Origin: Pseudorhodoferax soli
Lineage (GTDB): Bacteria; Pseudomonadota; Gammaproteobacteria; Burkholderiales; Burkholderiaceae_C
Length of the DNA stretch: 64,000 nucleotides
Direction of reading: 5' to 3'
Assembly (NCBI RefSeq): GCF_003337555.1
Contig: NZ_QPJK01000004.1
Location: 347,320-411,319, forward strand
The translations under genes were made by a program, and so were the position numbers. Below, piece by piece: positions 20,231 to 48,962 of this stretch. The notes under the pieces were generated by a model, which was given only the letters and a program-made list of their open reading frames with translations, made no database searches and was not told the origin of the DNA. How positions within the stretch are numbered: position 1 is the stretch's first letter; every line of letters begins with the position of its first letter.

Positions 20231-21700
20231 ATGGCCGCCACTGCCCCGCCCCCTGCCGATACCCTGGCCGCACTGCGCCGCGTGCTGCCCGCGCACGCGC
20301 TGCTGTCGCAGCCCGAAGACACCACGCCCTACGAATGCGACGGCCTCACGGCCTACCGCCAGCGCCCCATGGCCGTGGCGCTGCCCGAAACGTATGAACA
20401 AGTGCAGGCCGTGCTCAAGACCTGCCACGCGCTGGGCGTGCCCGTGGTCGCGCGCGGCGCCGGCACCGGCCTGTCCGGCGGCGCCATGCCGCACGCCCAG
20501 GGTGTGACGCTCTCCATGGCCAAGTTCAACCGCATCCTCAAGATGGACGCGGTGAGCCGCACGGCCGTCGTGCAATGCGGCGTGCGCAACCTGGCCATCA
20601 GCGAAGCGGCGGCGCCGCACGGCCTGTACTACGCGCCCGACCCCTCCAGCCAGATCGCTTGCACCATCGGCGGCAACGTGGCCGAGAACTCGGGCGGCGT
20701 GCATTGCCTGAAGTACGGTCTCACGGTGCACAACGTGCTGCAGATCAGCGGCTTCACCGCCGAGGGCGAGCCCGTCACCTTCGGCAGCGCAGCGCTGGAC
20801 ACGCCTGGCCTGGACCTGCTGGCGCTGGCCATCGGCTCCGAAGGCATGCTGGCCGTGGCCACCGAGGTCACCGTCAAGCTGGTGCCCAAGCCGCAACTGG
20901 CGCGCTGCATCATGGCCAGCTTCGACGACATGCGCAAAGCCGGTGACGCGGTCGCCGCCGTGATCGCGGCCGGCATCATCCCGGCCGGGCTGGAAATGAT
21001 GGACAAGCCCATGACCGCTGCTGTGGAAGACTTCGTGCGCGCCGGCTACGACCTCACGGCCGAGGCCATCCTGCTGTGCGAGAGCGACGGAACGCCCGAG
21101 GAGGTCGAGGAAGAGATCGGCCGCATGAGCGCGGTGCTGCGCGAATGCGGCGCAACCGCCATCACGGTGAGCCAGAACGAGGCCGAGCGCCTGCGCTTTT
21201 GGAGCGGCCGCAAGAACGCCTTCCCCGCTTCGGGCCGCATCAGCCCCGACTACATGTGCATGGACTCGACCATCCCGCGCAAGCGGCTGGCCGACATCCT
21301 GCTGGCGATCGCCGAGATGGAGAAGAAGTACGGCCTGCGCTGCGCCAACGTGTTCCACGCGGGCGACGGCAACCTGCACCCGTTGATCCTGTTCGATGCC
21401 AACGACCCGGACCAGCTGCACCGCTGCGAGCTGTTCGGCGCCGACATCCTGGAGACCAGCGTGGCCATGGGCGGCACCGTGACCGGCGAGCACGGCGTGG
21501 GCGTGGAGAAGCTCAACAGCATGTGCGTGCAGTTCTCCGCCGAGGAGAACGCGCAGATGTTCGGCATCAAGCACGCCTTCGACCCCAAGGGCCTGCTGAA
21601 CCCCGGCAAGGTGATCCCCACGCTGAACCGCTGCGCCGAGTACGGAAAGATGCTGGTGCGCGGCGGCAAGATCGCGCATCCGGATCTGCCGCGCTTCTGA
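20231..21700 (+). CDS. glcD: FAD-linked (S)-2-hydroxy-acid oxidase, GlcD type
   Basis: 489-residue flavoprotein of the glycolate-oxidase subunit D/D-lactate dehydrogenase family. FAD-binding motifs are PVVARGAGTGLSGGAMP and CTIGGNVAENSGGVHCLKYG; the C-terminal cap has FHAGDGNLHPLILFD and GTVTGEHGVGVEK. It probably oxidises glycolate or a related 2-hydroxy acid and passes electrons to the respiratory chain. In the canonical locus glcE and glcF follow, but here the next gene is a DUF4143 ATPase and then lrgAB. The partner subunits must be elsewhere or the enzyme acts alone. Confidence 0.88.
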   Translation: MAATAPPPADTLAALRRVLPAHALLSQPEDTTPYECDGLTAYRQRPMAVALPETYEQVQAVLKTCHALGVPVVARGAGTGLSGGAMPHAQGVTLSMAKFNRILKMDAVSRTAVVQCGVRNLAISEAAAPHGLYYAPDPSSQIACTIGGNVAENSGGVHCLKYGLTVHNVLQISGFTAEGEPVTFGSAALDTPGLDLLALAIGSEGMLAVATEVTVKLVPKPQLARCIMASFDDMRKAGDAVAAVIAAGIIPAGLEMMDKPMTAAVEDFVRAGYDLTAEAILLCESDGTPEEVEEEIGRMSAVLRECGATAITVSQNEAERLRFWSGRKNAFPASGRISPDYMCMDSTIPRKRLADILLAIAEMEKKYGLRCANVFHAGDGNLHPLILFDANDPDQLHRCELFGADILETSVAMGGTVTGEHGVGVEKLNSMCVQFSAEENAQMFGIKHAFDPKGLLNPGKVIPTLNRCAEYGKMLVRGGKIAHPDLPRF

Positions 21701-21704
21701 TCTG

Positions 21705-21770
21705 CTCAATGCGTTGAGTTAAATTACTCAGTCCATTGAGTAAATCATCTCAATGCATTGAGTAATTTCA
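21705..21770. promoter_or_regulatory. Three 22-bp tandem repeats, each with a palindrome, before the DUF4143 ATPase gene
   Basis: Three palindromes stand at exactly 22-bp centre-to-centre spacing: CTCAATGCGTTGAG (21705-21718), TTACTCAGTCCATTGAGTAA (21724-21743, 7-bp arms) and the perfect CTCAATGCATTGAG (21749-21762). The repeats run as direct 22-bp units almost up to the ATG at 21772, leaving no room for a ribosome site. Two helical turns of spacing puts all three on one DNA face. The block is AT-rich in a GC-rich genome. It looks like a cooperative operator; the binding protein is unknown. Confidence 0.75.
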
Positions 21771-21771
21771 G

Positions 21772-22974
21772 ATGCCCCTTCAAATCCAGCGCGCAGCACT
21801 GCCCGCTTTTGTCGAACGCCTGCGCGAGCCGCGCCGTCTGCTGCAGGTACTGGCCGGCCCACGCCAGGTGGGCAAGACCACGCTGGTGCGCCAGGCACTG
21901 GCCGCACTGGCAGACGAGCGCATCGCGCAGCACAGCGTCAGCGCCGACAGCCCGGGCCTGCAAGGCGCCAGCTGGCTGGCCACGCAATGGGAAACCGCGC
22001 GCGGCTTGGCTGCACAGGCCGGTGCCTGCGTGCTGGTGCTCGACGAAGTGCAGAAGCTCCCCGGGTGGACCGAGGAGGTCAAGCGTCTGTGGGACGAAGA
22101 CACGGCCGCCGGCCGCGACGTGCGCGCCGTGGTGCTCGGCTCGGCCCCGCTGCTCATCGCGCGCGGCCTCACCGAGAGCATGGCCGGCCGCTTCGAGATC
22201 ACCCGCCTGGGCCACTGGCGCTACACAGAGATGCGCGAGGCCTTCGATTTCACGCTGGAGCAATACATCTTCTTCGGCGGCTACCCGGGTGCGGCGCCAC
22301 TGGTGCACGACGAGACCCGCTGGGCCGCCTACATCCGCGACGCGCTGATCGAGACCACCATCAGCAAGGACGTGCTGCTCATGGCCCCGGTGCAAAAGCC
22401 CGCGCTGCTGCGCCGGCTGTTCGACCTGGCCTGCCGCTACAGTGGCCAGATGCTCAGCTACCAGAAGATGATGGGCCAGCTGGCCGATGCCGGCAACACC
22501 ACCACGCTGGCGCACTACCTGCAGCTGCTGGAAGGCGCCGGCATGGTCTGCGGACTGCAGAAATACTCCGGCCAGGCGCTGCGCCAGCGCGCCTCCAGCC
22601 CGAAGCTGCAGGTCTACAACACGGCGCTGATGGGCGCGCTGGCCGTGGCCGAAGGCTGGGGTTTCGCGCAGCTGCGCGCCACGCCCGAGCAGTGGGGCCG
22701 CCTGGTGGAAAGCGCCGTCGGCGCCGAACTGCTGGCGCGCCGGCTCACGCACAGCAGCACGCAGCCTGCGCTGTACTACTGGCACGAGGCCGGCCGTGAG
22801 GTCGACTACGTGCTGCCCGATGGGCGGGAACTGTTCGCGCTGGAGGTCAAGAGCGGCCGGCAACGCGGCAACGTGTCCGGGCTCGACGCGTTCCGCACGG
22901 CGTATCCGGCAGCCAGGCCGCTGGTCGTCGGTACTGGCGGCCTCGACCTCCACCACTGGTTCACCACACCATGA
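21772..22974 (+). CDS. AAA-family ATPase with DUF4143 domain
   Basis: 400 residues. Walker A is GPRQVGKT at residues 29-36 and Walker B is VLVLDEVQKL with Asp91-Glu92. After the AAA_14 core come the winged-helix-like region (LLRRLFDLACRYSGQMLSYQ, then KMMGQLADAGNTTTLAHYLQ) and the C-terminal DUF4143 nuclease-like segment with EVDYVLPDGRELFALEVKSG, which has a PD-(D/E)xK-like D...E-x-K pattern. Members are widespread accessory genes of uncertain function. No ribosome site is visible; the three 22-bp repeats end at the start, so translation may be leaderless. Its stop overlaps the lrgA start as ATGA. The AT-rich leader and the position between glcD and lrgA suggest later insertion. Confidence 0.85.
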   Translation: MPLQIQRAALPAFVERLREPRRLLQVLAGPRQVGKTTLVRQALAALADERIAQHSVSADSPGLQGASWLATQWETARGLAAQAGACVLVLDEVQKLPGWTEEVKRLWDEDTAAGRDVRAVVLGSAPLLIARGLTESMAGRFEITRLGHWRYTEMREAFDFTLEQYIFFGGYPGAAPLVHDETRWAAYIRDALIETTISKDVLLMAPVQKPALLRRLFDLACRYSGQMLSYQKMMGQLADAGNTTTLAHYLQLLEGAGMVCGLQKYSGQALRQRASSPKLQVYNTALMGALAVAEGWGFAQLRATPEQWGRLVESAVGAELLARRLTHSSTQPALYYWHEAGREVDYVLPDGRELFALEVKSGRQRGNVSGLDAFRTAYPAARPLVVGTGGLDLHHWFTTP

Positions 22975-47831: not shown

Positions 47832-48962
47832 ATGGAGCGCAGCGACCTCAGCCACTGGCTCCGGCTGCTGGGCACGCCGGACATCGGCAACGATGGCGCG
47901 CGCCGCCTGCTGACGGCCTTCGGTTCGCCGCATGCGGTGTTCGATCAGAGCGCCGCGGCGCTGGCCCAGGTCGTGCACGCGCGCCAACTGCGTCAATTGG
48001 CCGAGCCACCGGCCGGGCATGCGGATCTGCTCGACAAGACCTGGCAGTGGCTGCAACAACGGCCCGAGCAGCGCGCTGTTCTGGTGCCCGGCCAGGACGA
48101 CTATCCCGCCACGCTGCTGCACATGGCCGACCCACCGCTGCTGCTGTACGCGACGGGCGACCTGGCGCGCTGGCGCGCCTTCGCCGCAGATGCGGGGCGC
48201 GGCCTGGCCATCGTGGGCAGCCGCAAGCCCACGCCCCAGGGCTTGGCCCATGCACGGCAGTTCGCGCGCGGGGCAGCCTCGGCCGGCTGGACCATCGTCT
48301 CCGGCCTGGCACTGGGCGTGGACGGGGCGGCGCACGAAGGCGCACTGGAAGGCACGGCCGACGACGCCTCCCAGCCGGCCACCGTGGCGGTGGTCGGCAC
48401 CGGGCTGGACAGCGTCTATCCCAAGGCCCACCTCGCGCTGGCCCGCGTCATCGCTGCGCGCGGCATGCTGCTCTCCGAGTACCCGCTCGGAACGCCGCCG
48501 CTGGCCGCCAACTTTCCGCGCCGCAACCGCCTCATCGCAGGGCTCAGCCGCGGCACGCTGGTGGTGGAGGCGGCGCTGCGTTCGGGATCGTTGATCACCG
48601 CGCGGCTGGCAGCGGAACAAGGCAAGGAGGTGTTCGCCATCCCCGGCTCCATCCATGCGCCACAGGCGGGCGGCTGCCACCAGCTGATCCAGCAAGGGGC
48701 CAAGCTGGTCACGCGGATCGAAGACGTGCTCGAGGAATTCGACCCGGCGACCGCAGCGCGCCCCACGGCTGCGCCGCCCGAGCCGCCGCCCGACGACGAC
48801 GTGCTGGCCCATATCGGCTTCGACCCCATGGGCCTGGATGCACTGGCGGCCCGCACCGGTCTGCCGACCGCAGTCCTGCAGGCGCGCCTGCTGGAGTTGG
48901 AGCTGGACGGCCACATCGTGCGCCTCCCCGGCGCGCTGTTCCAACGCTTCGCGGCAGCCTGA
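47832..48962 (+). CDS. dprA: DNA-processing protein DprA
   Basis: 376 residues: an N-terminal SAM-like region, the Rossmann-fold core (GLAIVGSRKPTPQGLAHARQ, IVSGLALGVDGAAHEGALEG, PRRNRLIAGLSRGTLVVEAA) and a C-terminal winged helix (HIGFDPMGLDALAARTGLPT). It binds incoming single-stranded DNA and loads RecA during natural transformation. It follows the LysM gene by 24 bp and precedes smg by 35 bp. Confidence 0.93.
   Translation: MERSDLSHWLRLLGTPDIGNDGARRLLTAFGSPHAVFDQSAAALAQVVHARQLRQLAEPPAGHADLLDKTWQWLQQRPEQRAVLVPGQDDYPATLLHMADPPLLLYATGDLARWRAFAADAGRGLAIVGSRKPTPQGLAHARQFARGAASAGWTIVSGLALGVDGAAHEGALEGTADDASQPATVAVVGTGLDSVYPKAHLALARVIAARGMLLSEYPLGTPPLAANFPRRNRLIAGLSRGTLVVEAALRSGSLITARLAAEQGKEVFAIPGSIHAPQAGGCHQLIQQGAKLVTRIEDVLEEFDPATAARPTAAPPEPPPDDDVLAHIGFDPMGLDALAARTGLPTAVLQARLLELELDGHIVRLPGALFQRFAAA

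Follow-up and report, generated by a model that had tools for sequence, protein, structure and literature searches.

Known autoregulatory operators and the PDC-S01 family

The C proteins of type II restriction-modification (R-M) systems regulate their own expression by way of two palindromic operators situated before the regulator gene, and the PvuII transcript is leaderless, according to the available text of PMC2997769. For Csp231I, paired palindromes with A/T-rich stretches are described in the available part of PMC3115060. These C-protein/C-box operators are the nearest in working to the repeats described here, which precede a DUF4143 ATPase gene in a stretch of 64,000 nucleotides from Pseudorhodoferax soli (hereafter the window). 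The two would have in common an association with defence genes, paired palindromes and autoregulation, and a leaderless transcript is predicted for part of the ATPase subfamily. However, C proteins are small separate regulators encoded beside the R and M genes, whereas the ATPase gene has no R or M partner and its product, an ATPase/nuclease-like protein, would itself be the regulator. An R-M C-protein operator was rejected, as the ATPase gene is flanked by glcD upstream and by lrgA and then lrgB downstream, with no controller, restriction or methylase genes among these neighbours. A type II toxin-antitoxin operator was also rejected, as no small partner gene occurs beside the operator; the 71 nucleotides between the glcD stop (21700) and the ATG at 21772, together with the overlap of the ATPase stop with the lrgA start, leave no room for one.

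PDC-S01, the family of the ATPase, ranks high in frequency among the candidate defence genes of prokaryotes; in the available text of PMC12988326 it is placed fourth among prokaryotic defences, and most candidates of its kind still await validation. A rumen survey found it more often than any other individual locus, as given in the available part of PMC13356809. No described mechanism was found for PDC-S01, and no operator or autoregulation was found for the PDC-S01/DUF4143 family in the literature searched, with most subscription journals falling outside the search. This accords with the initial annotation of the window, which knew of no operator of such form for DUF4143 genes. Comparative sequence analysis suggests that the repeats probably constitute an autoregulatory operator of the ATPase's own gene, which is bound by the ATPase and lies over its own promoter.

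The ATPase gene and its upstream palindromes

The ATPase gene (21772-22974, plus strand) encodes a protein of 400 amino acids, and was classified as an AAA_14-DUF4143 ATPase (PADLOC PDC-S01) on the basis of family-model matches. The product matches PF13635 with 91.8 bits (cut-off 28.1), PF13173 with 70.9 bits (cut-off 27) and the PADLOC model PDLC04791 with 538.6 bits (E 1.8e-162), which places it in the PDC-S01/DUF4143 family. An NCBIfam search returned no family, and comparison of its sequence with the PDB gave no match at E ≤ 0.01. The stop codon of the ATPase gene and the start codon of lrgA share the sequence ATGA (22971-22974), and lrgAB may thus be translationally coupled to the ATPase gene.

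Three palindromes, none with an assigned strand, lie in the 71-nucleotide gap. Palindrome 1 (CTCAATGCGTTGAG, 21705-21718) begins 4 nucleotides past the glcD stop, and is followed by palindrome 2 (CTCAGTCCATTGAG, 21727-21740) and by the perfect palindrome 3 (CTCAATGCATTGAG, 21749-21762). They share the common form CTCAnnnnnnTGAG, with complementarity in 6/7, 5/7 and 7/7 arm pairs, respectively. Several features listed in the initial annotation were borne out. The spacing is exactly 22 bp (start-to-start distances of 22 and 22), and nine bases (21763-21771) separate palindrome 3 from the ATG. The AT content of 21705-21771 is 65.7 %, as opposed to 30.5 % for the whole window, a level reached by 16 of 63,933 segments of 67 bp, of which the first five listed start at 21700-21704. 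No separate Shine-Dalgarno site was discernible by eye in the space before the start codon, where only GAG (21760-21762, within palindrome 3) is found. No intrinsic terminator was found at the locus, and the sole Rfam match, which was sub-threshold and on the minus strand (22.8 bits; cut-off 70), was taken to represent folding of the palindromes.

Palindrome symmetry alone is weak evidence and is not exceptional for a 64-kb window. Three palindromes of 18/21 spaced exactly 22 bp apart occurred in 5/300 dinucleotide shuffles of the whole window, and at any equal spacing between 15 and 30 in 42/300, while the real window contains a second 18/21 triple, with a spacing of 23, at 47903. The single-palindrome pattern with two mismatches is not over-represented in the window (7 observed; 5.2 expected). 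What sets the repeats above chance is their common sequence, their richness in AT and, most of all, their conservation with the gene. A chance origin is thus ruled out by the comparative data only, as symmetry alone would not suffice.

Distribution of the operator and its gene

The proposal in the initial annotation depended on homologous genes also carrying the repeats, and these were found to accompany the gene across phyla. Relatives have two or three such palindromes with 22-bp spacing directly before the start codon, even where the upstream sequence differs. When anchored on the linker, the core TGAG-8-CTCA was found near the start codon with at least six of its eight bases in 29/34 subfamily upstream regions, while five regions (L009, L030, L045, L046 and L146) have a poor core. 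The 34 regions include L028, which has a stop, and L032, a near-copy, and L103, L112 and L113 were recognised as subfamily members only from the tree. Left out of the 34 were L035 and L042, for which upstream sequence is missing, L025, which has lost its N-terminus, L051, where the N-terminal part is not clear, and L053, on a phage scaffold. Two GCGTAAAA repeats spaced 22 bp apart are visible by eye on the L053 scaffold. The palindromes are retained at 50-60 % protein identity in other Burkholderiales, and the core is found before the plasmid-encoded ATPases of Thermus oshimai, Bacteroides finegoldii and Collinsella aerofaciens, which are 55 %, 46 % and 45 % identical to that of the window, respectively; the left palindrome of T. 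oshimai has diverged.

The pattern ACTCAN6TGAGTN6ACTCAN6TGAGT, with up to two mismatches, was run over 398 Burkholderiales genomes without regard to proteins and matched eleven separate loci in ten genomes. Nine of the eleven (8/10 without the window) have the gene (five intact, including that of the window) or a remnant thereof (four) in the right orientation. The remnants are N-terminal in G054 and G090, and C-terminal in G167 and at the second site of G100, while the loci in G135 and G172 have no DUF4143 gene. The reversed pattern, used as control, matched in G000, G135 and G167, with at least the G000 and G167 matches stemming from three-unit arrays. Within the window's own genome (8.16 Mb), the single palindrome with one mismatch matched only at the three known sites and at one further, weaker single site. 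In these searches, the operator occurs with its gene and rarely elsewhere.

The ATPase gene is patchily distributed, being found in 20/399 genomes (E ≤ 1e-60; own genome included), and its relatives sit on plasmids. At the glcD-lrgA site of a strain of the same genus (G005; L161) there is a C-terminal remnant only and, by eye, the operator has decayed too; this site was therefore rejected as an empty one. At the same site in G002 (L025) the operator and N-terminus have been deleted, and in G003 (L028) the ATPase gene has one internal stop. From these sequences, the ATPase gene is in the process of decay within the genus. In L139 (G167) and L143 (second site of G100) the operator is followed directly by the C-terminal remnant, with the ATPase part missing, which reads as two separate deletions that spared the operator. 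The DNA downstream of the ATPase gene in L035 (G198) resembles a type I restriction subunit by eye, and this neighbourhood possibly represents a defence-island context.

Operator structure, promoter and leader

The subfamily consensus is TTGATT - CTCAn6TGAG - TAAAWTTA - CTCAn6TGAG - TAA, with TTGATT located 16 nucleotides upstream of TAAAWT. Conservation is strong for the inner half-sites and linker (TAAAWT), moderate for the outer left half-site and weak for TTGATT. The inner half-sites are fixed in sequence, beyond pairing alone. With successive half-sites approximately 10-12 bp apart, the four would lie on the same side of the helix. Covariation was determined for the 29 core-bearing regions, reduced to 27, with kinship ignored in all z scores. 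On this basis, symmetry around the linker centre was pronounced for both the outer half-sites (145/216 pairs; z = 7.2) and the spacers (88/162 pairs; z = 6.0), weaker within palindrome 1 (z 2.8-3.0) and absent between the half-sites of palindrome 2 (z 0.4-0.6), while the innermost four linker pairs (1-4) were less complementary than shuffled ones (z = -2.1). As covariation is strongest around the linker centre, the unit appears to be one large dyad, to which an additional palindrome is joined in the window. The independent palindromes of the initial annotation are thus better described as four half-sites that form a single large dyad about the linker.

Across the subfamily, the dyad tends to coincide with predicted promoters. 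Best promoters had p ≤ 0.05 in 12/34 regions, and the best -10 element starts within 22 nucleotides of the dyad centre in 30/34, with the dyad filling much of the region scanned. In many members the best match puts the -10 element on the linker, and in six others (L013, L040, L041, L043, L044 and L145) on the outer left half-site. In the window, a -10-like TAAATT (21720-21725, plus strand) in linker 1 sits where the subfamily consensus has its -10, and forms part of a weak promoter (p = 0.54) with a predicted start 39 nucleotides upstream of the ATG. A second -10-like sequence, TAAATC (21741-21746, plus strand), in linker 2 corresponds to the TAAACT of the two-palindrome relative L021, and application of the same start rule by hand places a start 18 nucleotides before the ATG. 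A stricter promoter scan of 21400-22100 found none. The suggestion in the initial annotation that the gene is leaderless holds by prediction for L010, L011, L032, L033 and L037, in which the second palindrome contains the start codon, at 0-4 nucleotides from the predicted transcription start. It does not clearly hold for the window (39 or 18 nucleotides), whose gene is probably short-leadered rather than strictly leaderless. The ATG is more distant in L045 and L050, and is preceded by AGGAGG.

A rival reading has the repeats act in RNA. A glcD read-through transcript could fold into a hairpin ending before the start codon and so block translation, leaving expression to the gene's own promoter. 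As a replacement for the operator such a hairpin is unlikely, while the two may also act together. The RNA of 21705-21790 folds at -28.5 kcal/mol (z -7.47) and complementarity of the central dyad is retained even in the spacers, but transcripts from 21733 and 21754 reach z -1.89 and -1.06 only, and the inner half-sites are conserved in sequence as well as in pairing. Furthermore, the dyad encloses the predicted -10 boxes, whose position differs between two clades, and the gene's own transcript would thus lack the full hairpin. Mismatches of the G-T type outnumber A-C mismatches by 11 to 1 in 22 repeats of other operator types (P = 0.006), whereas their ratio in the central dyad of this subfamily (37 to 27) is not significant (P = 0.26). 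Given the strong fold of the full repeat and the G-T excess in the other types, a hairpin which silences read-through may coexist with the operator.

Operators in the wider DUF4143 family

Upstream repeats are also found outside the subfamily of the window. Ninety-five DUF4143 matches were obtained in 249 genomes of the phylum, of which 78 were fetched; L088 and L130 were dropped, leaving 76 loci for testing. The seventeen that were not fetched comprise the window itself and sixteen which are fragments, lie near a contig end or were not taken. Three of the 76 loci (L103, L112 and L113) belong to the window's own clade. At p ≤ 0.005, an inverted repeat near the start was present in 22/76 DUF4143 loci, as opposed to 9/245 control genes and 0/34 control genes of the window, and at p ≤ 0.05 in 34/76, as opposed to 26/245 and 2/34, respectively; the 245 control genes are from 20 of the sampled genomes and their starts, being taken from the longest frame, are less certain. 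Some of the 54/76 DUF4143 loci without an inverted repeat at p ≤ 0.005 lack one because they have direct repeats instead. For example, direct repeats around ACAATTGGACG, exactly 23 bp apart, precede the start in L060, L063, L064, L067, L070 and L074. The sequence of the repeat varies by subfamily, and includes CCTTGCAA..TTGCAAGG ending in ATG, and GACTATT..AATAGTC.

A tree of 118 proteins accommodates the operator types with 29 changes, compared to a mean of 64.0 for shuffled types (0/200 as low). The clade of the window comprises 27 rows with an SH-aLRT value of 100, and 24 of these have the TACTCA type; types were set by loose patterns, by which L063, L077, L085, L122 and L189 were accidentally placed in the TACTCA type. 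On contigs classed as viral (L186, L188, L193, L206 and L207), DUF4143 ATPases have repeats at the start codon which, by eye, are of the TTGCAAGG or GACTAT kind. The Bacteroides member, used as query against viral contigs, had no match.

The ATPase as candidate regulator of its own gene

A first structure model, built with seven close sequences (pLDDT 49.0), was set aside in favour of a second with 27 sequences (pLDDT 89.5). The predicted fold incorporates an AAA core, a winged-helix-like part and a C-terminal end that is PD-(D/E)XK-like. The winged-helix-like part (approximately residues 205-283; 22384-22620, plus strand) was delineated from the secondary structure of the model (block pLDDT 80-96), with helices 210-222, 230-236 and 243-255 and strands 259-264 and 278-281 taken as its elements. 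Helix 243-255 (TTTLAHYLQLLEG; 22498-22536, plus strand) is the presumed recognition helix in the model. The C-terminal part (approximately residues 305-390; 22684-22941, plus strand), which we take to have the PD-(D/E)XK fold from the model and its invariant residues, includes E313, D345, E358 and K360, all invariant among 22 aligned members. Both the winged-helix and PD-(D/E)XK labels are putative, being read from predicted elements and invariant residues. The presumed recognition helix, read from residue 242, has the motif N[TA][TV]T[LV]A[HG]YL in 20/22 aligned members. It deviates only in the sisters L045 and L046, the half-sites of which deviate too; as a single evolutionary event, this is a hint as to binding.

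The top Foldseek match of the model is to Cdc6/Orc1 on origin DNA (2qby; E 2.9e-8 but TM 0.32). The top VIA matches are to the archaeal AAA ATPases 2qen (PABY2304; Z 16.8, rmsd 3.2 over 258 residues) and 2fna (SSO1545; Z 16.4), in which the AAA core and the region that follows it align. The archaeal ATPases differ in being 14-16 % identical to that of the window, and their matches, which cover residues 1 to 292 at most, exclude its C-terminal part; the VIA rows in general hardly test residues beyond 333. Both proteins are presumably MNS/STAND-like.

The initial annotation proposed the ATPase's own winged-helix region or another repressor as binder; autoregulation by the ATPase itself is the best explanation, as the repeats follow the gene. 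The reading of the repeats as a self-bound operator draws on operator-gene conservation, the position over predicted promoters, near-uniqueness, joint decay and the fold prediction, as seen in sequence. The ATPase itself as the binder, which we infer mainly from one operator being conserved over four phyla, as well as repression rather than activation and the inducing signal, are the presumptive elements. On one DNA face, the ATPase would bind the TACTCA/TGAGTA half-sites at intervals of approximately 10-12 bp. With these half-sites located around and over the -10 region and transcription start, the ATPase would shut off its own transcription. Where it is drawn off or changes state, for instance on encountering foreign DNA, the gene would be derepressed. 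The conservation of the operator predicts a DNA-binding autorepressor, and supplies defined DNA and reporters with which its release may be studied.

A regulator encoded elsewhere in the host chromosome could also bind here. Host regulators commonly use sites of this kind and none of the adjacent genes (glcD and lrgAB) encodes a regulator, but the core is found in four phyla, before ATPases down to 45 % identical, and the same regulator would be needed everywhere. The genome holds just one weaker second site and the operator type tracks the ATPase's own tree, making a host regulator somewhat less likely still than the hairpin. Mobile-element ends or iterons, serving the movement or replication of a small cassette, are very improbable: 22-bp tandem units do resemble plasmid iterons, the gene is patchy with plasmid-borne relatives and the fold resembles Cdc6/Orc1, but no copy of the unit with up to two mismatches occurs 3' of the ATPase gene, the repeats lie at the start codon, mostly over promoter-like sequence, in the regions examined, and the genes adjoining the ATPase gene on either side included no recognisable replication or transposase gene.

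The self-bound operator may be extended, tentatively and with considerable doubt, to the DUF4143/PDC-S01 family as a whole. Its members could be self-regulating sensor-effectors, the winged helix of each subfamily recognising a private operator over its promoter, where the operator-bound oligomer is the resting form, foreign DNA or infection releases it, and operator and protein have coevolved as a unit transferable across phyla. If so, derepression and nuclease action would be one event. A private operator which stays with its gene across phyla would also provide a handle on what the ATPase recognises.

A more distant DUF4143 ATPase gene, L052 on plasmid pTT27 of Thermus thermophilus, is like that of the window in having a palindrome (TGAATGA-CTA-TCATTCA) just before the ATG, ending 3 nucleotides from it. 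Inside the palindrome, TATCAT ends 6 nucleotides before the ATG, with TTGTCT 17 nucleotides further up. The two differ in that their proteins are approximately 30 % identical and the operator sequence is another. From gene order (approximately the 207th RefSeq tag of pTT27), L052 would correspond to TT_P0211; the record has a second tblastn place. As given in the available text of PMC4406477, TT_P0211 RNA is up 6.6-fold with a plasmid present in wild-type T. thermophilus, a rise that occurred only in the presence of Argonaute. In a strain lacking Argonaute no gene changed more than 4-fold, and the change is connected by the authors with Argonaute. The rise in TT_P0211 RNA is compatible with a derepressible gene.
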